Below are positions 18,704 to 49,361 of a stretch of DNA of 64,000 nt, piece by piece (the stretch's first letter is position 1; each line of letters begins with the position of its first letter). Source of the DNA: Pseudomonadota bacterium (GTDB lineage Bacteria > Desulfobacterota > Syntrophorhabdia > Syntrophorhabdales > Syntrophorhabdaceae); NCBI GenBank assembly GCA_026388275.1, contig JAPLKB010000028.1, positions 1 to 64,000 of the forward strand, written 5' to 3'. The position numbers were made by a program, and so were the translations under genes. Under the pieces are notes generated by a model. It had not been told where the DNA came from, did not search any database, and worked only from the letters and a program-made list of their open reading frames with translations.

Positions 18704-18723
18704 AAGTTTTTAAGGAGGATAAT

Positions 18724-19746
18724 ATGTCTGATAAATGGATTTACTGGCTTGAGGAGCTTGGCAAGGAGGACAATGAACGTGTAGGCAGAAAGTGTGCCAA
18801 CCTTGGTGAGATAACAAAAGCAGGTCTGCCTGTCCCGAAGGGATTCTGCCTATCCGTGGGTGCTTATGGGATGTTCATGGAACTTACCGGGGCTGCGGAA
18901 GAAATAGCACGTCTCCTGGAAACACACAAGCCTGCAGCGGACGATGTTAATGGAATCCGTACTCTAAGCAGGGCCATGCGGCACGCCGTTGAGTCGAAAC
19001 CCCTGCCTCCAGAGATGGCTGACACAGTGCTGTCTTATTATAGCCAACTGTGCGACCAGGCCTGTACTCTGGACGTTGCTGTTTCCACACGGTCTGCTGG
19101 TGCAGTGAGCCATCCCGGCCAGTATGAGACATATCTCAATGTTAAAGGCAAAGATGATCTTCTTGACAAGGTGCGAAAAGTATGGGCAAGCACCTTCAAC
19201 GAGAGATCTCTGGCTTTTTGCATTAACAAGGGTTTGACTCTCGGCAATGAGCCTATCGGAGTGGCCGTACTGACCATGGTTCAAGCACGGTCAGCAGGAA
19301 TTGCCTTCAGTGCTGATCCGAATACGGGGGACACGTCAAAGATTATCATTGAAGCAAATTGGGGTCTAGGAGAGAGTGTCGTCAGCGGCGAACTAATGCC
19401 TGACCGCTGGGTAATAGACAAGGAAACGCTGGAAGTCCGCGAAAGAACTCTCGGGAGAAAGGATAAGGCCACAGTTTGCCTGGATTGCGGGATTGAAGAT
19501 GCCGAAATCTCTCCCGAAAAGGCCTGTTCCTTTTGTCTTAGCGATGAAGAATTGAAAGAGATTGCAAAGCTGGCGAACAAACTTGAGGCACATTTCGGTC
19601 TGCCTCAGGACATTGAATGGGCTGTGGCTGAAGACAAGCCCTTCCCCAATATTGTTTTGCTGCAGACGCGCGCGGTTGTGATTTCAAAGCAGGCCCCGGT
19701 TGATCAGGTTCTTGATCTTATGGTTGGCTTGTTAGCTTTTAAATAG
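18724..19746 (+). CDS. PEP-synthase-like ATP-binding subunit I (phenylphosphate synthase beta-like)
   Basis: 340 residues from ATG 18724; AAGGAGG ends six bases before it, so the upstream ATG at 18700 is rejected. The protein corresponds only to the N-terminal nucleotide-binding domain of PEP synthase: VGRKCANLGEITKAGLPVPKGFCLS, then SVSTRSAG-like phosphate contacts, SAGIAFSADPNTGD and IEANWGLGESVVSGE. The His domain is on the next gene. This two-chain layout is known from phenylphosphate synthase (PpsB plus PpsA) and resembles a split rifampin phosphotransferase. ATP would phosphorylate a His on the partner chain, giving AMP and Pi. It has a paralogue at 31190. Confidence 0.85.
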   Translation: MSDKWIYWLEELGKEDNERVGRKCANLGEITKAGLPVPKGFCLSVGAYGMFMELTGAAEEIARLLETHKPAADDVNGIRTLSRAMRHAVESKPLPPEMADTVLSYYSQLCDQACTLDVAVSTRSAGAVSHPGQYETYLNVKGKDDLLDKVRKVWASTFNERSLAFCINKGLTLGNEPIGVAVLTMVQARSAGIAFSADPNTGDTSKIIIEANWGLGESVVSGELMPDRWVIDKETLEVRERTLGRKDKATVCLDCGIEDAEISPEKACSFCLSDEELKEIAKLANKLEAHFGLPQDIEWAVAEDKPFPNIVLLQTRAVVISKQAPVDQVLDLMVGLLAFK

Positions 19747-19823
19747 TAACGAAATGATTCGAGGAGTTTACTTTAAAACCATGGTGAACATGCCATGGCA
19801 TAAAAATTAAAAGGGGGCAAGAG

Positions 19824-21506
19824 ATGTTACATGATGCTTATGATTTATCGTTTTATGAGTTTGATGATGAGAAAGACTCGAAGGAGTACGGCGTTCTCCT
19901 ATGCGATGTAGTTCATGGCAGACCGCCCATGAAACCAACTTATATGGGCATAGGCTGGTACTGGTATTATCATGGGGTGCGCTACGGAGCTGAAACCCTG
20001 CATTTACCCACTACTCATGGATGGGACTCGCGGTTTGTGCAAGGCTATCCCTATATTACTGCTATTCGTACTACCCCTGAGGAGGCAAAAGAGCGGGAGC
20101 CAATCTTCAGAGAGAAAATCAAACCATTCCTTGAAAACTTTGACGGCGTTTGGGACCCCTTGAAAGCGGAGTTACTGAAGATGTACAAGGAGGCAAAGGA
20201 CGCACGGGGCCTTAAGGAGTGGGATGATATAAAAAAACTGAGCAATGCCGACCTGCTGAGTTTCTTCCTTGATTTTGCCTACATAATCAACCGGAAAGAA
20301 GGTGAAATCCATTTTATCATGCTAATGGCATCATTTTATATTGTTGGTCTACTTCAGGAAATGTGGAGAACTATTTTTGAAGAGGAGCCTTCCATTGATC
20401 CTAATTTCCATAAACTCATGTCAGGGTTTGAAAACCAGGATATGAAAATGGGCCGGATGATGTGGGAACTCGGTCGCAAGGCAGTAGAGCTTAACCTGGA
20501 CGATATCTTTAGAAATACCGAGGATGATGTTCTCATAGACAAACTGAATACTTCTGAGGCCGGAAGAACATGGAACAGTCTCTATCATGAATTCCTGCTG
20601 GAACACGGGTGGCGCTCCGACCGGGCACATTCCTATGATAGCCCGGTCTGGCTTGAGAAACCAAGTATGGGCCTCAGTAGGATTAAGCTTCTTATGCACG
20701 CACCGCTGTTTAAATTCGACGTGGAAAGAGTTCGTGTAATCAAAGATCGTGAGGAGACTGAGAAAGAAGTACTTGCAAGAGTGCCGGAGGTACAAAGACC
20801 AGCTTTTAGTCTCCTTGTGAAAGCTGCGCAGAAATCAGGTTACTGGAGTGAGGATCATGGCTATTTCTGTGACTGCCATGTAGGCGCAATGGGTCGATGG
20901 ATCCTACAGGAATTCGGCAGGAGGTTTGCACAGGCCGGGAGTATCGATGACGCCGAGGATGTCTATTTCCTCCATCCAAACGAGATACGTAAAGCTGCCA
21001 TACCTTTGGGGAGGATTAATCTCCGTCCCTATGTCGAGCGGCGGAAGAAGGTCTGGGAAGAGAATATGAAGATCGAGCCGATACCATTTTTTGGAGACAT
21101 AAGTCAGGCGCAGGATATACTCCGAAGCGATCCTACCCTTCTTGTTTCCACGCAGGTTCCTGTGGTGAGGAAAGAGTTAAAGGCCGATCTGTATGGCGCC
21201 GCCTGTGCTCCGGGGTCCTTTCAGGGAACAGCAAGAGTGATCATGAGTGTGGATAAAATATCTGAATTGAAACCCGGCGAAATACTGGTTGCTCCCGGCA
21301 CCTCTACGGCATGGATGGTTGTATTCGGTATTATCAAGGGACTTGTGACAGACGGCGGCGGTGCTCTTTCTCATCCTGTTATCATGGCAAGGGAATTCGG
21401 TATCCCCTGTGTTTCCGGAACCGTTGAAGCCACGCAGAAGATCAAGACCGGCGACAAGATCTGGGTGGACGGCAATAGAGGGGTTGTCTACATCATGGAC
21501 AAGTAA
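19824..21506 (+). CDS. PEP-synthase-like phosphotransfer subunit I (phenylphosphate synthase alpha-like)
   Basis: 560 residues. The C-terminal 100 residues are the swivelling phosphohistidine domain, ending in DGGGALSHPVIMAREFGIP with active His517. The first ~450 residues do not match the PEP/pyruvate TIM barrel of PEP synthase; they are the mixed alpha-helical substrate-binding part shared with the paralogue at 32452 (motifs HGWDSRF, PFLENFDGVWD, HGWRSDRAHSYDSP). Phosphate would pass from ATP on the partner chain to His517 and then to a substrate hydroxyl or enol. It follows subunit I beta by 77 bases. The substrate is unknown. Confidence 0.85.
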   Translation: MLHDAYDLSFYEFDDEKDSKEYGVLLCDVVHGRPPMKPTYMGIGWYWYYHGVRYGAETLHLPTTHGWDSRFVQGYPYITAIRTTPEEAKEREPIFREKIKPFLENFDGVWDPLKAELLKMYKEAKDARGLKEWDDIKKLSNADLLSFFLDFAYIINRKEGEIHFIMLMASFYIVGLLQEMWRTIFEEEPSIDPNFHKLMSGFENQDMKMGRMMWELGRKAVELNLDDIFRNTEDDVLIDKLNTSEAGRTWNSLYHEFLLEHGWRSDRAHSYDSPVWLEKPSMGLSRIKLLMHAPLFKFDVERVRVIKDREETEKEVLARVPEVQRPAFSLLVKAAQKSGYWSEDHGYFCDCHVGAMGRWILQEFGRRFAQAGSIDDAEDVYFLHPNEIRKAAIPLGRINLRPYVERRKKVWEENMKIEPIPFFGDISQAQDILRSDPTLLVSTQVPVVRKELKADLYGAACAPGSFQGTARVIMSVDKISELKPGEILVAPGTSTAWMVVFGIIKGLVTDGGGALSHPVIMAREFGIPCVSGTVEATQKIKTGDKIWVDGNRGVVYIMDK

Positions 21507-31189: not shown

Positions 31190-32281
31190 ATGGAAAAGAA
31201 AATGTTTATCTGTTGGTTTGAAGAGTTATGCAAGGACGATGCCCCTGTTGTAGGCAAGAAGTGTGCAAACCTGGGGGAGATGACCCGATTGGGGATGAAT
31301 GTCCCACCTGGTTTTTCTCTTACCCTTGCTCTATATGAGAAGTTTCTCCAGGATAGTGGCCTTGGAGAGCGGCTTGGCCGATACATCGGGAACCTTGAAG
31401 ATCTCAAAGGAGCGGGCGTTGAACGTCTTAGAGGAGTAAGCTCCGAACTCCGCGGCATGATCGAAAATGAACCAATGCCGAAAGAAATAGCAAACCTTAT
31501 ATGGGAACATTACGATGAGTTGTGCAAAAGAGTAGGCATTCCTAATACCTCTGTTTCTGTGCGATCAGCCGGGGTTGCAAGCCGGCCCGGCATGTTTGAA
31601 ACCTATCTTAACATTGAGGGAAAAGAAGAAGTGGTGGATCACGTGCAAAAGGTGTGGGCCAGTGCCTTTACCCCCAGGGCGATTGCCTTCCGCATCAGCA
31701 AAGGATTGGCCATTGACTACGACATGCTTGGCGTGGCGGTGGTAAAGATGGTCAATGCTAGGGCAGCCGGGATAGGTTTTACCATTGACCCGGTACTTGG
31801 CGACGACTCCAAAGTCATAATCGAGGCTAATTGGGGATTAGGCGAAGGCGTGGTAAGCGGCGTTGAGAACGTAGACAGGTGGACAGTCGACAAGCAGACT
31901 TTGAAGATAGTGGAGAGTTCCGTAGGTAAAAAGATGAAATGTGTTATCAATATGGAAAAAAGCGCTGATTGGGCTGAGGTGCCTTCAGATAAACAGGACA
32001 AACCTTGTCTTAGCGACGAGGAAATAAAGGCTGTGGCTGAAGTTGCGATACACTTGGAACAAAAGTTGGGACAGCCGCAGGATATGGAGTGGGCAGTGGA
32101 TCCTGACTTCCCAGCAGGCAAAAACGTATTCCTGCTCCAAACGCGTCTTGCAAAATCTGTGGCTAAAAAGGCGGTTTCTGAATCAAAAGACCTTGCCGAC
32201 AAATTGGCCAGTAACTTAAGGTCGTCAGTAGATGTGTCCAAAACGGCTGAAAAAATAAAGAAAGTAGTGTTCAAATTTTAA
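31190..32281 (+). CDS. PEP-synthase-like ATP-binding subunit II (phenylphosphate synthase beta-like)
   Basis: 363 residues, paralogue of the protein at 18724. The opening FEELCKDDAPVVGKKCANLGEM, SVRSAGVASRPGMFETYLN, GIGFTIDPVLGDDSKVIIEANWGLGEGVVSG and LGQPQDMEWAVD are the PEP synthase N-terminal nucleotide-binding motifs. The C-terminal ~30 residues are a Lys-rich extension not shared with paralogue I. It pairs with the next gene, which carries the phosphohistidine domain. Ribosome binding site GGGGAGGAAGG. It is the first gene after the divergent LysR. Confidence 0.85.
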   Translation: MEKKMFICWFEELCKDDAPVVGKKCANLGEMTRLGMNVPPGFSLTLALYEKFLQDSGLGERLGRYIGNLEDLKGAGVERLRGVSSELRGMIENEPMPKEIANLIWEHYDELCKRVGIPNTSVSVRSAGVASRPGMFETYLNIEGKEEVVDHVQKVWASAFTPRAIAFRISKGLAIDYDMLGVAVVKMVNARAAGIGFTIDPVLGDDSKVIIEANWGLGEGVVSGVENVDRWTVDKQTLKIVESSVGKKMKCVINMEKSADWAEVPSDKQDKPCLSDEEIKAVAEVAIHLEQKLGQPQDMEWAVDPDFPAGKNVFLLQTRLAKSVAKKAVSESKDLADKLASNLRSSVDVSKTAEKIKKVVFKF

Positions 32282-32451
32282 TTTTTAAATAATAAGTAGG
32301 CATATTTTAAAGGATAACCAGAGGGGAGGTGGCATTAGAGTCTATATTGTTAATCTGAGGCAAAATTACGTAGTCTCAGGTCAATATGGATAGGAAAGCA
32401 AAATTATTTTCACCGAGATTCAAAATACTTAGATTTAAAAGGGAGGGTAAA

Positions 32452-34272
32452 ATGTCAGAAGAAGGATCGAGAAGTGAAGTGTCTTCAAAAGAGGCGATGT
32501 GGAAGAAATGGGAGCAGGATGAGAAGGAGGGCAAGCTGAAGGCAGGAGATGCTATTTGGGGCGTAAGTCCGGGTTATGACCTGATACCGGAGATCGATTT
32601 ACCGTTAAATCATTCATACTTCTTTGATGGCACTCATTCATGTCCGCCTCTTTCTCCCTTGGGCCTTCAGCTCTACTGGTCAAGAGGATGTACCCATGGA
32701 TTGAAGTACGTAAATTCATATTTCAGTTTGCCTACGTGCTACGGCTGGCAGGGAAGGGCCAAGGACGGCGGAATCTATTGGAGTTTTCTCATAGAGACCG
32801 ACGAGGAGAAGATAAAGGAAAGGGAGCCTAAGTTTAGAAAAGCCCTGCAGCCCTTTATCGACGATTTTGACGGAATCTGGGAGAAGAACAAGGAAGAGCT
32901 GTTCGAAATGTATGGAAAGTTGAGAAAGTTTAAGCCAGCAACAGCAACCAACATCGATTTCATCCATTTTCATTGGGACCTTGAGCGCGCAAGTCTGAGG
33001 CAGTGGGAAATCCATTTTCTCGGTATGCAGTCATCATATTCCGCTTGGATTTTGTTGGAGAAAGAGTGTAAGGAACGCTTTGGCATAGACGATAAAGGGG
33101 CAGAATTTCAAGACATGCTGCGCGGTTTCGACAATGAAATTTATAAAGTCGATAAAGAGTTGTGGGTACTGGCAAAGGAGGCGGTAGATATGGGGCTTTC
33201 TGATGTATTTAAGGCGAAGACCCAGCAAGAGATCATTCCGACCTTGGAACAATCAAAGGTGGGCAAGTTATGGTTGAGGGAATTTGATCGATTTATGCAG
33301 GAGAGGGGATGGAGAGCGACCAATCCCTTTGATATGGTGGCGCCCACCTGGCTGGAAGCCCCCGATGTCCCGGTAAAGAAGGTAAAAGACTATATTGAAT
33401 CAGGCGAAGCGGAAAGGCAAGATTATGCCTTGGATGAGAAAAGAAAAGAACTTTCCGTAAAAAGAGAAGATGCTGTAAAGAAGATGCTGGACAGGGTGCC
33501 CCCTGCAGAGAAAGCATCGTTCAAATCGCTTATTAATCTAGCCCAAAAGGCTTCTAGCTACAGCGAGGAGCATGACCTCTATTGCGAGATGACCATGATG
33601 GCCATATTGCGCTGGGGTTACCTTGCCATAGGGAAGTGGCTCTGTGACCAAGGGTGTATGGATCGTCCTGACGACATCTTCATGATGAACACTTTAGAAA
33701 TCGAATCAACTGTTCTGGTGCCAGGCAAAGCCGATATGCGATGGTTAACCGGAAGGCGAAGGGCAGAATGGGAGGCGTTGACAGATCGGTTCAGTAAAGA
33801 AGGTGAATTCAGACCACCGCTTTATACAGATAGAGGTGACTTGATGGAAGCAGTCGGCAGAGACCTCATACCCTCGTTTGACCCTATTGCCATCAAGATT
33901 GTGGTGGGCGATATGCCTAATGTGACCGCCGAGGAAATAGGGGCGGATATCGTGGGTATTTGCGGCTGCCCGGGTATTGCAGAAGGTACTGCCAAAGTTA
34001 TTATGGATTGTAAAGATCTCGGCGAGCTAAAGGCTGGTGATATCCTGGTGTGTCCGGGCACAAGCCCTGAATGGACGATTGCATTCGGTCTTGCTGGAGC
34101 TGTTGTTGGCGATAGAGGCGGAACCCTGTCACATACGGCCATTATCGGTCGGGAATACGGGCTTCCCACAATTGTTAATACCTTTGTCGCCTGCGAACAG
34201 ATAAAGTCAGGGATGCGGATACGGGTAGATGCGGGTAAAGGGGCAATCTACATACTCGACAAAGACAAGTAG
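32452..34272 (+). CDS. PEP-synthase-like phosphotransfer subunit II (phenylphosphate synthase alpha-like)
   Basis: 606 residues from ATG 32452, which has GGGAGGG a few bases upstream; the longer frame from 32386 adds 22 residues without a ribosome binding site. At about 70 kDa it matches the size of PpsA of phenylphosphate synthase. The C-terminal domain ends in DRGGTLSHTAIIGREYGLP with active His561. The ~480-residue front part shares blocks with paralogue I (CYGWQGR, PFIDDFDGIWE, RGWRATNPFD, SYSEEHDLYCEM). The active-site loop GGTLSH against GGALSH and many differences in the front part suggest a different substrate. Confidence 0.85.
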   Translation: MSEEGSRSEVSSKEAMWKKWEQDEKEGKLKAGDAIWGVSPGYDLIPEIDLPLNHSYFFDGTHSCPPLSPLGLQLYWSRGCTHGLKYVNSYFSLPTCYGWQGRAKDGGIYWSFLIETDEEKIKEREPKFRKALQPFIDDFDGIWEKNKEELFEMYGKLRKFKPATATNIDFIHFHWDLERASLRQWEIHFLGMQSSYSAWILLEKECKERFGIDDKGAEFQDMLRGFDNEIYKVDKELWVLAKEAVDMGLSDVFKAKTQQEIIPTLEQSKVGKLWLREFDRFMQERGWRATNPFDMVAPTWLEAPDVPVKKVKDYIESGEAERQDYALDEKRKELSVKREDAVKKMLDRVPPAEKASFKSLINLAQKASSYSEEHDLYCEMTMMAILRWGYLAIGKWLCDQGCMDRPDDIFMMNTLEIESTVLVPGKADMRWLTGRRRAEWEALTDRFSKEGEFRPPLYTDRGDLMEAVGRDLIPSFDPIAIKIVVGDMPNVTAEEIGADIVGICGCPGIAEGTAKVIMDCKDLGELKAGDILVCPGTSPEWTIAFGLAGAVVGDRGGTLSHTAIIGREYGLPTIVNTFVACEQIKSGMRIRVDAGKGAIYILDKDK

Positions 34273-34301: not shown

Positions 34302-34357
34302 CCACGGGCTTTACCGTGGACATATAACCTATAGGGCGGCACAGTCGCCGCCCTATA
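34302..34357. repeat. two hairpins after the kinase II genes
   Basis: Hairpin one is CCACGG/CCGTGG (34302-34319, six-base loop). Hairpin two has perfect 11-bp arms TATAGGGCGGC (34330-34340) and 34347-34357 with a six-base loop. Neither is followed by a T run. The first resembles a hairpin at 45187-45204. They could stop or process the kinase mRNA before the next gene. Confidence 0.5.
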
Positions 34358-38669: not shown

Positions 38670-38741
38670 TAAGCTTGTGAGAAGCAAAAAAGCCTGCGGC
38701 AAGTGTAGAACTGCTTGTTTGGAATGCGGGAGGAAGGTTTT

Positions 38742-39827
38742 ATGAACAAAACAAAATGGGATGTTGTGGTTGTGGGCAGTGGTCCTGGCGGGAGCATGGC
38801 GGCAAAAATATGTGCCGATGCCGGGCTGGAAACACTGCTCGTGGAGAAGAAGAAACTTCCCCGGGACAAGGTCTGCTCCGGGATGCTGTTGGGATACTGG
38901 GCCAGGAAGCTCGTGCAGCAGGAGTTTGGAGATATACCAGCGGATGTCCTTGTTGAACCTTATAAAGGCATGGGTTTTCATGTGGGCAGTGGACACTACA
39001 TTGAGATGCAGGTGCCCATACCCGTCGGATGGAGGAAAGATCTGGACTACTGGATGTCCTCTAAGGCATCTGAGGCCGGTGCCCTCCTGAGGGACATGGC
39101 AAGGGTGACCGCAATACGGCCGCACGCCAGTGGTTATGAGGTCGATGTCAAGGGCGAAAACAAGGAAACAGATCACCTATATGGGAGGTTCGTGATCGGT
39201 GCTGACGGGGCATATTCCACGATAAGGAAATGCCTCTGGCCTGATTTCCATGTGCGTTATCGGCCTGTGGCGAGGGAGTGCTACAAGGCGGAACTCTCGA
39301 TTGAAAAGGACTATTTCCACTGGTTCTATCCAGCCGGCACTGCCACTCCACGGTACGACATCAATTACAAGGGAGGTTTTTTTCTGATTGAAGGCAACCT
39401 CCGTCCCATAAGGGATAGCATAAGAGAGACATTACAAGGCTACGGCCTTCCTTCAGGAGTTAAGCCTCTTTGGCGAGATGCCTGTGTGAACCCCCACCTT
39501 TGGGACGATCTTATCAACGGCTCCTTCGTGCCTGCGAAGGACAATGTGCTCCTCGTCGGTGATACGGCGGGCATGCTATTTCCCACTACCCACGAAGGCA
39601 TCGGCTCTGCCCTGAAGAGCGGGATAATGGCTGCCGAATCGGTCATCGAGGCGCTCAAGGGAAATAGTAAGGCCGAGGGGCCGTATCTCAAGAAAATCGA
39701 GGAAATCAAGACCGTCCTGGCGGAGCTTCAGATAATGACCAAAAAGCTGGGCGATGTCGCGAAGAAAGGAGCGGATGCGCTCCTTGAATCTATGGTGGAA
39801 TTATTCGACAAGACAATCAGGGAATGA
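38742..39827 (+). CDS. geranylgeranyl-reductase-family flavoprotein
   Basis: 361 residues from ATG 38742 (GGGAGGAAGG just upstream); the frame from 38715 adds nine residues. GxGxxG motif VVVGSGPGGSMAAKICADAG and the second FAD motif NVLLVGDTAGMLFPTTHEGIGSALKSGIMAAE identify the GGR/halogenase-like family that reduces or hydroxylates unsaturated substrates. A decayed partial copy of the same type lies at 48897. It follows the CrtI-type pair by 72 bases, so three flavoproteins sit in a row. Confidence 0.88.
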   Translation: MNKTKWDVVVVGSGPGGSMAAKICADAGLETLLVEKKKLPRDKVCSGMLLGYWARKLVQQEFGDIPADVLVEPYKGMGFHVGSGHYIEMQVPIPVGWRKDLDYWMSSKASEAGALLRDMARVTAIRPHASGYEVDVKGENKETDHLYGRFVIGADGAYSTIRKCLWPDFHVRYRPVARECYKAELSIEKDYFHWFYPAGTATPRYDINYKGGFFLIEGNLRPIRDSIRETLQGYGLPSGVKPLWRDACVNPHLWDDLINGSFVPAKDNVLLVGDTAGMLFPTTHEGIGSALKSGIMAAESVIEALKGNSKAEGPYLKKIEEIKTVLAELQIMTKKLGDVAKKGADALLESMVELFDKTIRE

Positions 39828-40857: not shown

Positions 40858-41832
40858 TCAGGGCAAGGGGAGCAGGCTACCGGGGTCTAAGGTTGAAGGC
40901 ATTAATGTGTCTATAAGAGCAGTTATGCTGCCAATCGGCCTGTCGCGCGGCGCTATTTCCTGCAGGACGTTGAGAAAGACTACAGCAGGGGGTGACAGAA
41001 CATGGTTTTTGAGGTAGGCGATGTTGATGTCCAGGGTAACTTGATTCTCTTCAATGGAAAGGGCTGCCAATTTTCCCTCATCTATTTCCCTGGACATGGC
41101 TATTCTTGACAGGAAGGAAATGCCTTCTCCCCTCTGAACCATATTTTTTATCAATTCAGTATTGTTCGCTTCTGTATGGATATGCAAGGGAATTCCGGAT
41201 CTCTCGAACAACAGATTCACAAGATACCTGCTTGCTGATCCTTTTCCTCTGAGTATGATTTTTTCATCAGCCAGGTCTTTGATCGAAGGATTCATTTTCC
41301 ATGTAAGTGGATGATCTACGGGCAGGGCTACAAGCAGTTCCTCCCTGCAAAACGGTATGAAACAGACATCAGGATTTTCTTCGACTTTGACACAGATGAT
41401 TACCTCGTTCTGAAAATCAAGGAGTCTCTGAATGATATCCAGGGACCCGGCCTCGTCCACTTTTACCGTAATATTCGGATAAAAACTGTGGAAGTGACTG
41501 ATCAGGAGATGCAGAAAGGTATGGGAATAGGTCCTTGATGTTCCCAGTGAAACAACGCCGGCTCTTAAGCCTTTAAGATCGTTTACCGCACTCTCAATCT
41601 CTGTTTCAAGGTCGAAAAGTCTACGGGCATATTCGTAAAGGAACTTGCCTCCTTCGGTAAGGAGGATCTTATGTGATTTTCCTTCGAAGAGCTTCAGTCC
41701 CAACTGCTCTTCAAAGGCTTTAATTTGATTGGTAACCGCGGGTTGGCTTATGAAAAGGTCTCCGGCTGCTTTGGTGTAGCTCATACGCTTTGCCACTCTG
41801 TAGAAGATCCTGAAGTGATGAAGGTTTATCAT
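40858..41832 (-). CDS. LysR-family transcriptional regulator
   Basis: 324 residues, starting MINLHHFRIFYRVAKRMSYTK with the helix-turn-helix SQPAVTNQIKAFEEQLG and an effector-binding domain. It is less similar to the two MRPPQ-type regulators, so it is a separate lineage. It is divergent from the molybdopterin oxidoreductase operon, which it probably controls. The C-terminal end carries a Pro/Leu-rich tail (LDPGSLLPLP). The effector is unknown. Confidence 0.9.
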   Translation of the reverse strand: MINLHHFRIFYRVAKRMSYTKAAGDLFISQPAVTNQIKAFEEQLGLKLFEGKSHKILLTEGGKFLYEYARRLFDLETEIESAVNDLKGLRAGVVSLGTSRTYSHTFLHLLISHFHSFYPNITVKVDEAGSLDIIQRLLDFQNEVIICVKVEENPDVCFIPFCREELLVALPVDHPLTWKMNPSIKDLADEKIILRGKGSASRYLVNLLFERSGIPLHIHTEANNTELIKNMVQRGEGISFLSRIAMSREIDEGKLAALSIEENQVTLDINIAYLKNHVLSPPAVVFLNVLQEIAPRDRPIGSITALIDTLMPSTLDPGSLLPLP

Positions 41833-42234: not shown

Positions 42235-44334
42235 ATGAATAATCAAATTATACGTACAACTTGCTCCATCTGCTTGCAGGATTGCGGCATGCTGGTACAT
42301 TTACAGGATGGGGAGATCGTAAAAATTGAGGGAGACCCTCGTGCGCCCCTCAACATGGGAGCTCTCTGTGTAAAGGCAACGGCTTCACTTGAGATTCGGA
42401 ACCATCCTGGCCGCGTAAGACATCCTCTTATACGAAAGGGCGAACGGGGAGAAGGGAAGTGGCAGGAGGTCTCCTGGGATGACGCCCTCGGCAGGATAGC
42501 TGATGAAATGAACAGGGCCAAAGAGAAGTACGGCCCCGAGTCCGTGTGCTGGCTTAGGGGTGCTGCTAAGGGCATTCAGGACAATGTATTTACCCGCCTT
42601 GCCAATGTATTCGGCTCTCCGAACATCACCTCCATGGCATCGGTCTGTTATTTCCCCCACGTGAACGCCATGCGCTTCACCTTTGGCTCCTTTCTCATGG
42701 AAGATCACACAAATGCTTCGGCGCTGGTCGTGGTTTGGGGTATGGACCCCGCGTCAACATCTATACCGAACTACGAACCTCTCAAGAGAGCTGTCGCCCG
42801 GGGGGCCAGATTAATGGTGATAGACCCCTTTGAAACCGTTCTGGCAAAAAAGGCAGACCAATGGATAAGGCCGAGACCGGCAACGGACATGGCTCTGGCC
42901 CTGGGTATGGCTTACGTCATTATCAATGAAGGCTTGTACGACAAGACATTCGTGGAGAACTGGACAAAGGGGTTTAATGAACTCAAGGCACATGTCCAGG
43001 ACTATTCACCCGATAAAGTGTCTGAGATTACCTGGGTGCCTGCTGAGACCATTGTGGATGCTGCAAGATTTTATGCTGCCAACAGACCGGCAGCCGTTCT
43101 GGTGGGGAATGCAAATGAGAATATCGTGCTTTCCATGCAAACTCAGCGGGCTATTTATATATTGGAAGGCTTGTGCGGCAACGTGGGTGTACCGGGCGGC
43201 AAAGTCCAGTGGACTAATCCTCCAATAGTATCCAGGGCTGCCCCGGAATTTACCTTACAGGACCATATCCCCAAAGAGATGCGGCAAAGGAGATTGGGGG
43301 CTGAGCATCTGGCTCCTTTTGTACACTACGCTTTACCGCAGAGCGTGATAAAGGCCCTCATTACCGGCAAGCCATACATACCTCATTTGGCTTATATTCA
43401 GGGAGGAAATCTGCTTTGCACCTGGGCTAATTCTAAGGAAACTCTGGAAGCGTTCAAGAAACTAGATTTTATAGCAACGGCTGACTTGTTTCTGACACCC
43501 ACCGTTGAAATGTGCGATGTGGTTCTGCCAGTGGCCCACTTTCTTGAGCACGATGCCCTTCGTCAGTCAGGGGATCTGCCGTTTTTGGCACAGATACAGC
43601 AGAAGGTGGTTGATCCGGGGGACTGCAAGTCGGACACCCAGATCTATATCGAGCTATCCCGTAAGCTGGGACTTGGTGAGTATTTCTGGAATGACGAATA
43701 TGATTTCATGGAGGAAATGCTGAGACCCGCAGGAATTACTTTGGACGAGTTCCGGAAAGTGCATGTCCTGGAGTGTGTCAGACAGTACAGGCATTATGAG
43801 AGGGGCGGTTTCGCTACCCCTTCGGGCAAGCTCGAACTTTACTCAAATGCACTCAAGGAGGCGGGCTTCGACCCGTTACCAGTCTACCGTGAGCCTCCCG
43901 AGACAATGTACAGTGAGCCCGGGGCGGCAGGCGAATACCCTCTGATTCTTACCACGAGGAAGCCGGCTGTTTTTCGGCACGCCAACCTGAGACAGATCAA
44001 AAGCCTGAGAGTCCTGCGTCCCGATCCGATCCTTAATATCAATCCTGCCACGGCCAGGGAACTGGGAATCAACAATGGGGACTGGGTCTATATTGAAAAT
44101 AAACGAGGCAGGATAACCCATAAGGCTGAATATTCGGAAAGTCTGCACCCACGGGTTGTGGTGGGGGACCACGGCTGGTGGTACCCTGAGAAGGGAGTTG
44201 ATGAAGATCTGCATGGATTTACAGAATCGTGTATTAATGCAATTACCAGCAACAGCCCTCCTTATGCCCATGAGATGGGGGGTGTTACCCTAAGAGGCAC
44301 TTCCTGTAAGGTCTACAAAGTCGGGAAGTTATAA
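42235..44334 (+). CDS. cytoplasmic molybdopterin oxidoreductase (DMSO reductase family)
   Basis: 699 residues. N-terminal [4Fe-4S] motif C10-x2-C13-x3-C17-x27-C45, then the bis-MGD domains. The likely metal ligand is Cys138 in ASVCYFP. There is no Tat signal, so the enzyme acts in the cytoplasm. The C-terminal part has the typical TTRKPAVFRHANLRQIKSL and NINPATARELGINNGDWVYIEN segments. Such enzymes include formate dehydrogenases, thiosulfate/polysulfide reductases, acetylene hydratase and transhydroxylases; I cannot choose. No small iron-sulfur subunit is next to it, so it may work alone. The operon continues with a corrinoid protein and two methyltransferases. Confidence 0.88.
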   Translation: MNNQIIRTTCSICLQDCGMLVHLQDGEIVKIEGDPRAPLNMGALCVKATASLEIRNHPGRVRHPLIRKGERGEGKWQEVSWDDALGRIADEMNRAKEKYGPESVCWLRGAAKGIQDNVFTRLANVFGSPNITSMASVCYFPHVNAMRFTFGSFLMEDHTNASALVVVWGMDPASTSIPNYEPLKRAVARGARLMVIDPFETVLAKKADQWIRPRPATDMALALGMAYVIINEGLYDKTFVENWTKGFNELKAHVQDYSPDKVSEITWVPAETIVDAARFYAANRPAAVLVGNANENIVLSMQTQRAIYILEGLCGNVGVPGGKVQWTNPPIVSRAAPEFTLQDHIPKEMRQRRLGAEHLAPFVHYALPQSVIKALITGKPYIPHLAYIQGGNLLCTWANSKETLEAFKKLDFIATADLFLTPTVEMCDVVLPVAHFLEHDALRQSGDLPFLAQIQQKVVDPGDCKSDTQIYIELSRKLGLGEYFWNDEYDFMEEMLRPAGITLDEFRKVHVLECVRQYRHYERGGFATPSGKLELYSNALKEAGFDPLPVYREPPETMYSEPGAAGEYPLILTTRKPAVFRHANLRQIKSLRVLRPDPILNINPATARELGINNGDWVYIENKRGRITHKAEYSESLHPRVVVGDHGWWYPEKGVDEDLHGFTESCINAITSNSPPYAHEMGGVTLRGTSCKVYKVGKL

Positions 44335-44347
44335 TGGAGGTATAGGC

Positions 44348-45016
44348 ATGGATTCAATCGAAATAGTAAAAGAGATACTGAAGGGACTATCCGATGCGGT
44401 AATCGCCTTTGATGAGGAAAAGACAGTTGAACTGGCTATGACGGCACTCAAAAAGGGTATTGATCCGAATGATGCTATACTGAAAGGTCTTGCCGTAGGA
44501 ATGGATGAGGTGGGAAAACTTTACGAGAAACAGGAATATTTTGTGCCTGAGTTGCTCCTCTGCGCAGATGCGATGAATGCGGCCGTCGATGTGCTCAAGC
44601 CTCACATTAAACTCGGAACACAGGCAAAGCCCTATAGCGTTGTCATAGGTACTGTTGAGGGGGATATCCACGAGATTGGCAAAAACCTCGTGATAATCAT
44701 GTATGAGGCCGCAGGGTGGACTGTTTACAACCTGGGCGCTGATGTAAAGATACCCCTATTTCTGGACGAGCAAAAAAGAACAGGCGCTGACGTTGTGGCG
44801 ATCTCCTGTTTGATGACGACGAGCATGCTGGCCATCCCCGAGGTCATAAAACCCATTAAGGAGTATGATCCTGGGATAACCGTGATGGTCGGAGGAGCAC
44901 CGCTGAGCCGAGAGATGGCGATGGCCTACGGGGCCGACGGATTTGCCCTTAACTGCGGGACGGTGGTGAAAGAAACGCTCAAAGCTCTTAATAGGGAGAA
45001 AGGCAGGCCTGAATGA
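44348..45016 (+). CDS. corrinoid (B12-binding) methyltransferase protein
   Basis: 222 residues. An N-terminal four-helix cap (to about residue 90) precedes a Rossmann-like B12 domain with D106-x-H108-x2-G111 in GDIHEIGKNLV, the lower axial His ligand, then the SCLMTTSM and GGAPLSREMAMAYGADGFA segments. It is the methyl carrier of the MtaC/MtbC/dimethylamine type. AATGGAGG precedes the start. Two UroD-type methyltransferase genes follow, so it is likely the carrier for one or both. Confidence 0.93.
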   Translation: MDSIEIVKEILKGLSDAVIAFDEEKTVELAMTALKKGIDPNDAILKGLAVGMDEVGKLYEKQEYFVPELLLCADAMNAAVDVLKPHIKLGTQAKPYSVVIGTVEGDIHEIGKNLVIIMYEAAGWTVYNLGADVKIPLFLDEQKRTGADVVAISCLMTTSMLAIPEVIKPIKEYDPGITVMVGGAPLSREMAMAYGADGFALNCGTVVKETLKALNREKGRPE

Positions 45017-45017
45017 T

Positions 45018-45088
45018 CTATTGCCGGGGCTTGCGTCGCCCCCTCCACCGGCAAAGCCGTCGGAGCCTCCCCCTCTCACTCGCGGTGC
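45018..45088 (-). repeat. 71-bp structured repeat, copy B
   Basis: Reverse-oriented copy of 39851-39921 with seven differences in 71 positions. It starts two bases after the corrinoid gene. Its own arms TTGCCGG (45021-45027) and CCGGCAA (45048-45054) pair around an inner GGGC/GCCC stem, and CGGC-AAA-GCCG forms another hairpin. It is in the 235-base gap before the first methyltransferase. Confidence 0.75.
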
Positions 45089-45124
45089 GAGCTAATTTCC
45101 AGGGCGATGCGAGGCAGCAGAGGA

Positions 45125-45204
45125 CCACGCTTTCGAGCGTGGGTAAATGCGATTATCATCCACGCAAAGGGTTTCGGGTATTAGTGCCACGGGTTTGCCC
45201 GTGG
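45125..45204. repeat. pair of small hairpins before the methyltransferase gene
   Basis: CCACGCT-TTCG-AGCGTGG (45125-45142) and CCACGGG-TTTG-CCCGTGG (45187-45204) are perfect 7-bp stems with four-base loops. The second matches the hairpin at 34299-34320 in sequence (AGTGCCACGGG). They may be mRNA-processing elements between the corrinoid and methyltransferase genes. Confidence 0.5.
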
Positions 45205-45251
45205 GAATCTATCCGGACACATGCGAGTGGAGCAGTAAGGGAGGCAACGCC

Positions 45252-46331
45252 ATGAACGAGAATTGGAATTTGAGGCCGGACAGAATGACGCCGGCGGAGA
45301 GGATGAAGGCTCTCCTTTCGGGAAAACCAATTGACCGGGTAGGTTTTTACCCCTTTACACGGGGTTTTTGCGCTATAAACACAGGTATGACGATGGAGAC
45401 CTTTTATTCGGAACCTGCAAGCAGTTTTGAAGCACAGCAATGGATCCAAAAGATGTATAATCACGATGAAGCCCTCAAGTTTGGCGGTGCCTGCTATGGC
45501 GCCTGGGAATTTGGCGGGGATATTAAAATACCCAAGTCCGAGTGGCAGCAGGCCATTTCGGTGGAGCGCCATCCTGTCCAATCGGAGGAAGACGTGGAGA
45601 AATTGGAGTTACCTGATGTGACCGTTGCAGGCTCAATTCCGAGGACCATGGAGTTCAGCAAACTGCAGCGTGCAGCCAGTCTTGCCTGCTCAATTTCAGT
45701 GGGCAGTCCCTTGATGATCGCAGGGAACATCTGTGGAGTTGAGAAGTTGATGCGGTGGATGCTGAAAAAACCGGTTCTGGCGCATAGAGTACTCCGGCTG
45801 GCTACGGATTTCGGAGTAGCGGTAGCAAAGTACTGGTTGGATACCTTTGGCGCTGATAATGTGGATATCCGCGATTCGGCGCCCACAGATTCGAACCAGG
45901 TCATATCGCCGAAACATTTCAGAGACTTCTCGTTTCCGTATCTCCTGGAGCTTCACGAGAAGGTGCTGGCCCTGGGTGCAAAATACATCTACAGTCACAT
46001 CTGTGGAGAGCAGAATCTGAACCTGTTGTTCTGGCGTGAGCTGCCCTTTGGAGATCCGGGAATAGCCGGCTTTGGTCATGAAGTGGACCTGACGAAGGCA
46101 ATAGAGATGCTGGGGGACAAATGCATCGTAGTCGGCAACGTTGAGCCCCGAATTCTTCAGACGGGAAACCCGCAGGAAGTGTACCAGCAGTCACGGGAGT
46201 GTATCGAGAAGGGCAAGCACGCACCCAGGGGTTTCATTCTGGGCACTGGATGTGAACTGCCGCCCAGGTCGCCTGCTGCAAACCTCTTTGCAATGAAAAA
46301 GGCTATCAATGATTTTGGTTGGTATGAATAG
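45252..46331 (+). CDS. UroD-type corrinoid methyltransferase 1
   Basis: 359 residues from ATG 45252 with GGGAGG eight bases upstream; the upstream frame to 45147 is not supported. The uroporphyrinogen-decarboxylase fold is used here for methyl transfer: the likely zinc ligands H249-x-C251 (HICGEQ) and C334 (GTGCELPPR) match the MtaA/MtbA pattern, which true UroD lacks. It may move a methyl group between the corrinoid protein and CoM, tetrahydrofolate or a substrate. Partner of the corrinoid protein at 44348. Forms a tandem pair with the next gene. Confidence 0.85.
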   Translation: MNENWNLRPDRMTPAERMKALLSGKPIDRVGFYPFTRGFCAINTGMTMETFYSEPASSFEAQQWIQKMYNHDEALKFGGACYGAWEFGGDIKIPKSEWQQAISVERHPVQSEEDVEKLELPDVTVAGSIPRTMEFSKLQRAASLACSISVGSPLMIAGNICGVEKLMRWMLKKPVLAHRVLRLATDFGVAVAKYWLDTFGADNVDIRDSAPTDSNQVISPKHFRDFSFPYLLELHEKVLALGAKYIYSHICGEQNLNLLFWRELPFGDPGIAGFGHEVDLTKAIEMLGDKCIVVGNVEPRILQTGNPQEVYQQSRECIEKGKHAPRGFILGTGCELPPRSPAANLFAMKKAINDFGWYE

Positions 46332-46382
46332 AGCCCTCTGTCCGGTCGTCGAGCGCAGAACCACATACGGGAGGTAGTAGAA

Positions 46383-47423
46383 ATGAATAACCGAGCCATG
46401 AGATTACTTAAGGGTGAACCAATTGACCGGACCCCGCTTTTCCCATTCATTCTGGGATTCTGCGCAAAAAACGCAGGATACCCTATTGCCGCCATTTACA
46501 GCGACCCTCAAAAGAGCTTTGAACTCCAACTGTGGACGCACGAACAGTATGGTTTCGACTGGGGCCCTATATATGGCTATGCCTCATACGGCACCTGGGA
46601 GTTTGGCGGTGAGATTAAAATGCCTGCCACTGCCTATGAACAGGCGCCGTTCCACACGAGATTTCCGGTCGAGACAGAACAGGATATTCAAAAACTGAAC
46701 TTGCCTGATCCAGGGGCGGCAGGGTGCCTTCCACTTGCTATGGAGTTTTCACGGTTGCAAGATAAACATGGAAAGCCTGTTTCTGTTGTATGTGGCGGCA
46801 ACTTTACCATTGCAGGAAATGTTTGTTCCGTTGAAACACTCTGCCGGTGGATGCTGAAAAAACCGGATCTTGTGCATAGAATCATGCGTCTTACCACAGA
46901 CCATATCGTTGACATTGTTCGATACTGGTCGGACGTTTTTGGCAGCGAGCGTGTGATTCCGCAGATGTGGGAGCCTCTGACAGCCAACATCATTATCTCG
47001 CCAAAACAATTTGAGAAGTTCGTTCTCCCTTATATCAAAGAATCGAATGAAAAGATATTGTCACTGGGGGTAAAGCACATTCTCTACCACATCTGCGGAG
47101 ATCAGAACAAAAACCTGCCTTACTGGAGCCAGATTCCCATGGGCGATCCGGGGCTTTGCAGCTTTGGAGTCGAGGTTGACCTTCTTACGGCAATCGAACA
47201 CCTTGGTTCCCGGAATGTTATCATCGGCAACATAGACCCAAAGGTGTACCTGAGTGAAACACCGGAACAGATATACCGCCTTTGCAGGGAGGCTATAGAG
47301 AAGGGAAAATCTGCTCCCCGGGGTTTCATGCTGTCGTCGGGATGCGAGATTCCACCGGAGGCCCCACCCTACCTCGTTTACCAGATGCACAAGGCCATCA
47401 TGGATTCGGCAACCGGTTGTTGA
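46383..47423 (+). CDS. UroD-type corrinoid methyltransferase 2
   Basis: 346 residues, tandem paralogue of gene 1 (shared MRLLKGEPIDRTPLFPFILGFCAKN, YGTWEFGGEIKMP, NVCSVETLCRWMLKKPDLVHR). Zinc ligands H236-x-C238 (HICGDQ) and C321 (SSGCEIPPE) are kept. Ribosome binding site ACGGGAGG. The pair may be a substrate:corrinoid methyltransferase and a corrinoid:acceptor methyltransferase, the arrangement of demethylation systems. It converges with the acyl-CoA dehydrogenase gene. Confidence 0.85.
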   Translation: MNNRAMRLLKGEPIDRTPLFPFILGFCAKNAGYPIAAIYSDPQKSFELQLWTHEQYGFDWGPIYGYASYGTWEFGGEIKMPATAYEQAPFHTRFPVETEQDIQKLNLPDPGAAGCLPLAMEFSRLQDKHGKPVSVVCGGNFTIAGNVCSVETLCRWMLKKPDLVHRIMRLTTDHIVDIVRYWSDVFGSERVIPQMWEPLTANIIISPKQFEKFVLPYIKESNEKILSLGVKHILYHICGDQNKNLPYWSQIPMGDPGLCSFGVEVDLLTAIEHLGSRNVIIGNIDPKVYLSETPEQIYRLCREAIEKGKSAPRGFMLSSGCEIPPEAPPYLVYQMHKAIMDSATGC

Positions 47424-47497: not shown

Positions 47498-48706
47498 CTA
47501 CTCTACGGTATAATCGTAATATCCACGGACGACACGATAACGGGAAATCTGTTGACCACCGAGCCATAACTGTGTAATTTTCGCATCCCGCAGGTATTTC
47601 TCGAGGTGATATTCAGGAGACAGGCCGTTGGAACCCATAAGCTGCATGGCCATGTCCGCAACCCACACGGCCGCATCGGCCGCATATATCCTCACGATGC
47701 CTGCCTTCGAGATCATTTCGTTTGTAAAAGAAGGCCCGTATTTATCCCGATGATCGGACATCCACGCAAAGTTATAGACCAGAGCCCTTGTTGTTTCAAC
47801 CCGGATTGCCATGTCTGCCAGGATGCCTGCTGCCATGCTCCATTCCCGCACCGGCTTGCCGCCGCTCGTCCGGTCCTTTGTATAATCAAGGGCAATGTCA
47901 AAGGCCGCCTGAGCAATACCAAGGGACATTGTGGCGGAACTCAACTGCGAACTTGCCATGGTGGCATGGTAAAAGCGCCCATCATCACCAGGGCCGGAGA
48001 GCCTAAATTCCTTCGGTACCTTGACATTGTCGTAGAATATGCTCCCATTGACGGATGTTTTGAATCCCATCTTTTTTTCCGGTTTCCCGAAAGAAAGTCC
48101 TTTGGTATCACCCGGCACATAGATGAGTGCAATGCCCTCATCCCCGAGATTCGGGTCTGTGGTACAGACGGTAAGGTATACGCTTGAAATACCGGCATGA
48201 GTAGGCCAGGATTTGTTTCCGTTGATGACCCACTCATCACCTTCCAGCCGGGCCCTTGTAGTAACGTACTTGCTTCTTAAAAGGGGGTTCTCTGTATCGG
48301 CACCACCCGTGGAATCCGTCATTGACAGGCAGGCATAGTTCAGCTTGCTTCCGCAAAAGGCAGGAACGAACCTGTCCAGGACGGCTTTATTGCCTGCTGC
48401 CATAGCAGGTTTTAAAATACTTCCTCCATTTATAACGGCGCTGAGGCTGATGCCTGCATCTCCTCGCGCCAACTCTTCGCGGATTATGCATATGGTAGTG
48501 GTCGAATGGGTGCCTCCTCCGCCATATTCTTCCGGGTAAGCGATTCGCTGAATACCTAAATCAACAAGCTTTTGAAGCACTGATTCAACCAGATCGTGCT
48601 CCTCCTCGATCTTTTCCCGAATTGGCATGATTTCCCTGTCAACAAATTTCCTGATCATTTGACGAATATCGTTTTGTTCTTCTGTGAGCAGGTCCTTGAG
48701 ATACAT
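47498..48706 (-). CDS. acyl-CoA dehydrogenase
   Basis: 402 residues. FAD- and CoA-binding segments LSMTDSTGGADTENP, GNKSWPTHAG and GIAQAAFDIALDYTKDRTSGGKPV, and the C-terminal helical bundle, fit the flavin-dependent acyl-CoA dehydrogenase family. The residue aligned with the common catalytic Glu (IYEGT) is Leu382 in TQLWLGGQQI, so the base is either at another position, as in isovaleryl-CoA dehydrogenase, or lost. AAGGAGG lies a few bases before the ATG. It ends 75 bases from the convergent methyltransferase. Substrate unknown. Confidence 0.87.
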   Translation of the reverse strand: MYLKDLLTEEQNDIRQMIRKFVDREIMPIREKIEEEHDLVESVLQKLVDLGIQRIAYPEEYGGGGTHSTTTICIIREELARGDAGISLSAVINGGSILKPAMAAGNKAVLDRFVPAFCGSKLNYACLSMTDSTGGADTENPLLRSKYVTTRARLEGDEWVINGNKSWPTHAGISSVYLTVCTTDPNLGDEGIALIYVPGDTKGLSFGKPEKKMGFKTSVNGSIFYDNVKVPKEFRLSGPGDDGRFYHATMASSQLSSATMSLGIAQAAFDIALDYTKDRTSGGKPVREWSMAAGILADMAIRVETTRALVYNFAWMSDHRDKYGPSFTNEMISKAGIVRIYAADAAVWVADMAMQLMGSNGLSPEYHLEKYLRDAKITQLWLGGQQISRYRVVRGYYDYTVE

Positions 48707-48896: not shown

Positions 48897-49361
48897 TTGG
48901 AGTGTTTTACCCTTGAAGGAGGTATAAGAGCGCTCAGGAACAAAATAAGTGATATTTTGACTTCCTTTGGGTTTAGCGGTGAGAAGCCCTTATGGAAGGA
49001 CGGATGTCTGAGTCGGGTCCAGATTCCTGGACATCCCTATCCTGATTCCTATACATCATCAAGAGGCAATGTTTTGCTTGCAGGCGATGCTGCACGTCTC
49101 AAGATTCCTGTGAGTGGTGAGGGCATAGGCACTGAATTGAAAAGCGGGATTCTTGCTGCCGAATCTATAGTAAAGTCTCTTAAGACCGGGCAGGATGTTT
49201 CAAAAATATATTCTGACAATCTGAGTCCGCTTTTGGAGATTTTGCACTCATACAGCCTTGGACTGGAGAAAATAAAGAAAGACGGGCAAAAGGGACCGGA
49301 AGCCCTGCTTGATGCGCTGACAAAGGCATTTGAAGAGACGATTGATATTGCTGATTATTAA
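48897..49361 (+). pseudogene. 5'-truncated geranylgeranyl-reductase-family remnant
   Basis: The frame encodes the C-terminal ~150 residues of a protein like 38742-39827: the FAD motif NVLLAGDAARLKIPVSGEGIGTELKSGILAAES and the end EALLDALTKAFEETI align. Similarity starts abruptly at about 48900 (ECFTLEGGIRALR matching FFLIEGNLRPIR) and the upstream 190 bases contain no front half. The apparent TTG start has no ribosome binding site. It is probably a decayed gene rather than a short protein. Confidence 0.7.

Follow-up and report, generated by a model that had tools for sequence, protein, structure and literature searches.

Among enzymes with a bis-molybdopterin guanine dinucleotide (bis-MGD) cofactor, the catechol dehydroxylases are placed nearest to acetylene hydratase in the available text of PMC7028382, and the accessible part of PMC12096430 describes an exchange of Asp13 for Ala that kills acetylene hydratase activity. 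For methyltransferases of the UroD type, the available text of PMC10418091 assigns His-Cys-Cys ligands to sulfur and selenium methyltransferases and altered ligands to O-demethylases. In uncultured anaerobes, substrates are still to be assigned to many corrinoid systems and to most enzymes of the acetylene hydratase branch. Here we describe a unit in which both kinds of protein are encoded together, in a stretch of 64,000 nucleotides (the window) that forms part of contig JAPLKB010000028.1 (C28; 105,177 bases) of a Syntrophorhabdaceae genome of 3.5 Mb that is 99.5% complete. It encodes a molybdenum or tungsten (Mo/W) enzyme of the acetylene hydratase branch (P0001), a corrinoid carrier (P0002) and two UroD-type methyltransferases (P0003 or MT1, and P0004 or MT2), flanked by a LysR-family regulator and an acyl-CoA dehydrogenase (ACAD). 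The combination is real, conserved and recurrent, and each of its parts is of a known kind.

Pairing of molybdopterin enzymes with UroD-type methyltransferases

The unit was compared across 46 genomes of the order Syntrophorhabdales. In genome G004 the run from LysR through the molybdopterin-enzyme (MPT), corrinoid, MT1 and MT2 genes to ACAD is whole and in the same order, at 73-90% identity, and the genes outside this run have no match to the window. In genome G045 the same genes lie on one contig in two blocks, LysR-MPT and ACAD-corrinoid-MT1-MT2, about 9-10 kb apart. LysR is divergent to the MPT gene in both genomes (73% identity). ACAD, which is absent from the earlier note on this DNA, is kept beside the methyltransferases in both (87% identity in G004 and 88% in G045), and on this conservation we count it as belonging to the unit. 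Other genomes of the order carry the corrinoid and UroD block with other MPT genes, either as two MPT genes after MT2 (L063) or as one between two UroD genes (L064); in four further loci (L066-L069) the block has no MPT gene within the stretch covered.

Proximity of MPT and UroD genes was more frequent than expected by chance. Within the order, the two lie no more than 3 kb apart on 6 contigs against 0.63 expected, a count that used 81 of the 85 UroD rows, four short fragments being left out; with the window and its close counterpart in G004 removed, 4 contigs are left against about 0.63 (Poisson, about 0.004). A wider scan of genome contigs with 20 aligned family members gave 79 loci (the best 80 of 87 matches), of which 76 were usable once L264, L281 and L290, with no UroD open reading frame (ORF) of at least 200 aa called, had been left out. 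By their record titles these are metagenome-assembled genomes (MAGs) of anaerobic lineages, including Syntrophorhabdus, Desulfobacterales, Dehalococcoidia, Anaerolineae, Actinomycetota and Thermincola. MPT genes accounted for 11 of the 251 neighbours within 1 kb of a UroD gene (in 11 of the 76 loci) versus 2 of the 603 further out (Fisher, 5e-5), and with the window's own order (six loci) left out the figures were 8/231 and 1/546 (Fisher, 4e-4). The joining of a DMSO-reductase-family enzyme to methyltransferases, singled out in the earlier note, thus recurs beyond chance.

The MPT enzymes that take part are not all close to P0001. In a FastTree tree of 107 MPTs, the 20 UroD-adjacent tips are dispersed, requiring 15 Fitch changes where shuffled tips gave a mean of 18.6 and a minimum of 15, in a set picked by similarity to P0001 or proximity to UroD genes and in which contig ends make some calls of non-adjacency uncertain. 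In the clade of the window's MT1 (window, L219, L220, L251 and L256; support 1.0), four of the five members lie no more than 3 kb from an MPT gene, and the MPTs of L251, which is convergent, and L256 come from branches other than that of P0001. The spread over the tree and the different branches met within one MT1 clade argue that related MPT enzymes have been recruited repeatedly to systems of one kind. Most UroDs near MPT genes carry His-Cys-Cys, the exceptions being L074 (FEA), L156 (HDC) and one UroD of L275 (FC-). We found no acetylene-hydratase-branch enzyme coupled to a corrinoid methyltransferase in PMC texts; subscription papers lay mostly outside this scope, and such a case may be in print.

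Protein families and layout of the unit

P0001 falls in the acetylene hydratase branch by phmmer, in the MPT tree and by structure. Against solved relatives, phmmer gave 2.5e-102 for acetylene hydratase, 6.9e-76 for polysulfide/thiosulfate reductase and 1.2e-62 for FdhF, the formate dehydrogenase of the hydrogen-dependent CO2 reductase (HDCR). The AlphaFold2 model (mean predicted local distance difference test score, pLDDT, 87.8) matched acetylene hydratase best (2e7z; Z 41.8, 687 residues, 2.2 Å, 32% identity), with the next structure at Z 39.2. The metal ligand is retained (Cys141 in acetylene hydratase), as are the cluster cysteines 10, 13, 17 and 45 and Lys47. In place of acetylene hydratase Asp13, a residue that adjoins a cluster cysteine, P0001 and its three close orthologues (L060, L061 and L062) have leucine. 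Because Asp13 is needed for activity, hydration of acetylene by P0001 would not be expected, and the enzyme was ruled out as an acetylene hydratase proper. No residue signature for catechol dehydroxylases is given in the available text of PMC11585353 or PMC12771579. P0001 has Molybdopterin, Molydop_binding and Fe4S4 domains, the last from residue 5, and no signal peptide was seen by eye (no prediction program was used), which fits its earlier description as cytoplasmic. Among 25 of the 36 records from a plasmid search, P0001 retrieved thiosulfate reductases and two relatives at 33%; the corresponding UroD search returned six records with distant UroDs (23-30%).

MT1 and MT2 are 48% identical, match PF01208 at 2.7e-47 and 1.9e-48, and have the His-x-Cys...Cys motif that the earlier note read in both (H249/C251/C334 in MT1 and H236/C238/C321 in MT2). 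Neither is a true uroporphyrinogen decarboxylase, a possibility that was excluded by hemE model scores of 35.7 and 30.6 bits (cut-off 303), by a predicted MT1 structure (pLDDT 93.3) that is nearest to MtaA (Z 36.4, 328 residues, 2.5 Å; UroD structures at most 32.8), and by their placement in a clade of their own. The narrower label "MtaA-like" did not hold up: both score far under the cut-offs of the MtaA, MtbA and MtaA/CmuA models, with 115.0 (MT1) and 94.6 (MT2) bits for the MtaA-type model PRK06252 (cut-off 244) and at best 91 bits for the MtaA model (cut-off 400).

In an IQ-TREE phylogeny of 59 UroDs, the window family is recovered with support of 100/100. A wider clade (97.5/99) unites it with the mostly FE[TAS]-type UroDs, called O-demethylase-like by ligand type, and the His-Cys-Cys group of L151/L153, in a tree whose root is poorly supported (75.3/49). 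MtaA falls outside this clade, as do three UroDs of the Acetoanaerobium noterae cluster L138, which has a corrinoid gene, a RACo-type activase gene, three full-length UroD matches and one shorter one, and which we term MGC-like from gene content alone. Phylogeny, a check proposed in the earlier note, places MT1 and MT2 apart from MtaA and the MGC-like proteins, in a clade of their own inside the wider group that also holds the O-demethylase-type UroDs, and it settles the order of the nearest branches poorly. Four loci of the window's own order (L017, L018, L034 and L037, in genomes G042 and G032) have UroDs that group with L138, apart from the window family.

A larger tree of 131 UroDs places 102 in the window family, spread over 70 loci, with constant and variable METHYLTRANSFERASE. 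MT2-type proteins group in a clade (support 0.97) to which 24 loci contribute a single member each; a corrinoid gene lies no more than 3 kb away in 21 of these loci, and 17 of them have a further family member. The remaining 78 fall into several subclades, each typically found beside particular genes: a GlcD-type FAD oxidase with a CCG protein, a sugar-type ATP-binding cassette (ABC) transporter set, ACAD, a TRAP transporter, or an MPT. From this contrast between a single MT2-type clade and members that vary with their neighbours, we infer that MT2 is the acceptor enzyme and MT1 the substrate demethylase. Four bacterial MAG loci (L273, L275, L284 and L286) have members of an MtmB-like gene cluster near corrinoid and UroD genes, and L273, L275 and L284 also have a member of an MTTB-like one, each cluster being typed from one representative; this suggests an acceptor-side role as an option for UroDs of the family.

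In six Chloroflexi loci (L266, L271, L274, L278, L279 and L280) and in L253, a family UroD ends a sugar-type operon that includes a UTRA-regulator gene; the set comprises the ABC transporter, an alcohol dehydrogenase, a 2-hydroxyacid dehydrogenase, an aldo-keto reductase and a DeoC-like aldolase, and the UroD may demethylate a methylated sugar. The subclade of L228, L239, L265, L295, L225 and L277 adjoins the GlcD-type FAD oxidase, and the CCG protein is present in the first four.

ORF calls and domain families bore out the four same-strand genes and divergent LysR described earlier (Table 1). MT1 has its preferred start at an ATG behind a GGGAGG site; the mechanical ORF begins at 45147. The intergenic gaps measure 402 bp (LysR to P0001), 13 bp (P0001 to corrinoid), 235 bp (corrinoid to MT1) and 51 bp (MT1 to MT2). 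The 235-bp gap (45017-45251) contains two short perfect inverted repeats, one of which (45187-45204) has a one-mismatch copy at 34302-34319, beyond chance and possibly a repeat element. No known RNA family reached its gathering score in the window.

Table 1. Positions in the window of the genes assigned to the unit.
Feature	Position	Strand	Remarks
LysR-family regulator	40858..41832	-	PF00126 and PF03466; divergent to the operon
P0001, single-subunit bis-MGD (Mo/W) enzyme, acetylene hydratase branch	42235..44334	+	Metal ligand Cys138; Leu14 replaces Asp13
P0002, corrinoid carrier protein	44348..45016	+	Two B12-binding domains; DxHxxG at residues 106-111
P0003 (MT1), UroD-type methyltransferase (PF01208)	45252..46331	+	His-Cys-Cys; read as substrate-side
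P0004 (MT2), UroD-type methyltransferase (PF01208)	46383..47423	+	His-Cys-Cys; read as acceptor-side
Acyl-CoA dehydrogenase (ACAD)	47498..48706	-	Convergent; conserved with the unit

Elsewhere in the window, two gene pairs (18700-21506 and 31190-34272) match phosphoenolpyruvate synthase, one gene of each pair its ATP-binding front part and the other its PEP-utilising back part, an arrangement also known from phenylphosphate synthase. A 1382-aa protein (8028-12176) has domains of the acyl-CoA dehydratase activase and benzoyl-CoA reductase type (TIGR00241, 296 bits). A 154-aa ORF at 48897-49361, perhaps a gene remnant, looks by eye like the C-terminal portion of a protein of the geranylgeranyl reductase family encoded at 38715-39827.

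Proposed pathway and competing explanations

In the pathway that we propose, MT1 would shift a methyl group from the substrate onto the Co(I) corrinoid of P0002, and MT2 would hand it to a common acceptor, while a RACo-type activase from elsewhere in the genome would keep the cobalt reduced (RACo genes lie at C28:101010, about 54 kb from the unit, and at C58:111556). The heteroatom laid bare in the product would then be the target of P0001; action on the demethylated product, an option raised in the earlier note, is the most likely one for this enzyme. In the most likely version, MT1 would turn a methoxyaromatic into a catechol that P0001 reductively dehydroxylates, and ACAD would act on the side chain or at a later point of the pathway. 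We consider the module by itself, with MT1 on the donor side, MT2 on the acceptor side and P0001 on the same pathway, somewhat probable. The whole scheme of demethylation followed by catechol dehydroxylation is held tentatively, with rather less than an even chance.

An aryl methyl ether as the methyl compound is favoured by the nearest known chemistry of P0001, by the position of MT1 and MT2 in the UroD tree, and by neighbouring genes at two places. In Syntrophorhabdus (L064/L241, same contig), a corrinoid-UroD-MPT-UroD block stands beside a 6-hydroxycyclohex-1-ene-1-carbonyl-CoA dehydrogenase gene (437 bits, cut-off 339), a CoA ligase gene and a major facilitator superfamily (MFS) gene nearest to aromatic-acid symporters (324 bits, under the cut-off of 419). 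At L075 a ligase is nearest to 2,3-dihydroxybenzoyl-adenylate synthase (315 bits, under the cut-off of 724). ACAD was considered as a caffeyl-CoA reductase and rejected, CarC being the last of the 28 sequences listed at 1e-40. The genome has a second methyltransferase cluster at C58:103000-120000 (L142), probably its methoxyaromatic O-demethylase system, in which an O-demethylase-type UroD (FET) and a RACo gene are accompanied by corrinoid and pterin-binding genes, two of each.

Several observations weigh against this pathway. The unit holds no electron-transfer subunit. The link between the branch of P0001 and the catechol dehydroxylases comes from published description. MT1 and MT2 both carry His-Cys-Cys, without the altered ligands of O-demethylases, and the choice between O-demethylase-type UroDs and the L151/L153 group as sister of the window family is poorly supported (93.6/50). 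Aromatic-degradation neighbours were found at L064/L241 alone: when the dehydrogenase, MFS and CoA ligase of L064 were sought in the other loci, with CoA-ligase matches considered above 35%, the single match beyond L241 was to the dehydrogenase, at 28% in L253. The 24 loci with an MT2-clade member are the basis for proposing a common acceptor enzyme, in a clade delimited by chosen seed sequences; such a member is missing from 46 of the 70 family loci within the stretch covered (many on short contigs), which lowers our confidence in both the whole scheme and the module. Finally, genome G023, which is 98% complete and belongs to the genus of the window, has a P0001 orthologue (91%) and only two weak partial PF01208 matches (73.7 and 74.3 bits), one of which, on C42 (X_L026), groups with O-demethylase-type UroDs. 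The surroundings of its P0001 gene, envelope-sugar genes and unrelated enzymes, gave no lead.

The methyl compound could instead be a thioether or selenoether, an account that we regard as possible if doubtful. His-Cys-Cys is present in 119 of the 131 UroDs of the larger tree, both window proteins included, in a set that leans towards these ligands because one of the two scan peptide patterns contains HxCG. By the ligand rule in the available text of PMC10418091 these residues point to sulfur or selenium. The unit lacks a tetrahydrofolate (H4folate) methyltransferase, pterin-binding PF00809 matches being found only on C21 and C58. A UroD at L272 lies with ACAD and an E1/E2 set, named by eye as branched-chain-oxoacid-dehydrogenase-like, that would suit methionine-derived methylthio acids. 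Against this account stands the position of the window UroDs outside the MGC-like and MtaA branches, and we know of no acetylene-hydratase-branch enzyme that acts on sulfur. A type-1 MGC was also weighed, for the zinc ligands and a match of the window LysR to a "selenium metabolism-associated" model, and the LysR hint was dropped as unspecific: the match reaches 208 bits (cut-off 250), and two other LysRs of the window match as well (148 and 204 bits).

P0001 and the methyltransferase block may also serve different pathways and be only co-regulated or co-inherited. The split blocks of G045, and G023 with its MPT and no methyltransferases, indicate that the two can separate. Operon context in close relatives, by which the earlier note was prepared to be judged, accordingly held in G004 and failed in these two genomes. 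L066-L069, with a methyltransferase block and no MPT, agree with separate pathways, as does the distribution of relatives in the phylum, where MPT relatives were found in at least 69 of 395 genomes versus at least 12 of 395 for the UroDs at the thresholds used (at most 2 or 5 candidates were scored per genome, which makes these lower bounds). However, adjacency recurs with MPTs of many branches, and the MPT gene accompanies most members of the window's MT1 clade; we think separate pathways unlikely. Oxidation of a methyl-derived C1 unit, the other option of the earlier note, by P0001 as an enzyme of the formate dehydrogenase type is very improbable, since its match to the formate dehydrogenase model TIGR01591 (314.7 bits, cut-off 666) and the second and third structural ranks held by formate dehydrogenases are surpassed by acetylene hydratase in both sequence and structure.

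If the proposed coupling of demethylation to P0001 extends to other loci, a general anaerobic strategy of "demethylate and delete" can be imagined, in which a variable UroD demethylase exposes an oxygen or sulfur atom for reductive removal by an acetylene-hydratase-branch Mo/W enzyme encoded alongside, so that the whole methoxy or methylthio group is lost, with enzymes of the branch recruited repeatedly. We regard this generalisation as distinctly doubtful. If true, uncultured anaerobes should hold many such pairs that are specific for their substrates and as yet uncharacterised, and the first bis-MGD dethiolases may be among them. The recurrent genetic link between the UroD clade and the acetylene hydratase branch provides a handle on both families, and if MT2 is the acceptor enzyme and MT1-type proteins carry specificity, substrates could be guessed from partner genes.

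Comparison with described systems

The type-1 mlp clusters, as presented in the available text of PMC10418091, resemble the unit in having a corrinoid protein, several His-Cys-Cys UroDs and no H4folate methyltransferase. Mlp2 and Mlp3 are the UroDs that mark such clusters, and the window UroDs group apart from those of L138, a locus that is itself termed MGC-like from gene content. The window unit differs in having no Ram/RACE activase and in the presence of a bis-MGD enzyme; the main text of that paper makes no mention of molybd, DMSO or LysR. The MtaA/MtbA coenzyme M methyltransferases share the UroD fold and His-Cys-Cys, and MtaA is the nearest solved structure to MT1, whereas the window UroDs stand far below the family cut-offs in a separate clade. 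The genome has no ComA match, on which coenzyme M was set aside as the methyl acceptor, although it could come by other routes.

The UroD-type O-demethylases (the OdmB/VdmB/MtvB type and, by ligand type, the genome's C58 cluster) likewise combine a UroD with a corrinoid protein and share the 97.5/99 clade, but the window UroDs keep His-Cys-Cys and their unit is without a pterin-binding methyltransferase. With the catechol dehydroxylases of gut Actinobacteria, P0001 has the acetylene hydratase branch in common according to the description in PMC7028382, in the available text of which these enzymes are not paired with a corrinoid system, unlike P0001. Acetylene hydratase is the top match of P0001 in both sequence and fold, with the metal-ligand cysteine, the cluster cysteines and the lysine in common, and P0001 departs from it in the exchanged aspartate and in its genetic link to methyltransferases.

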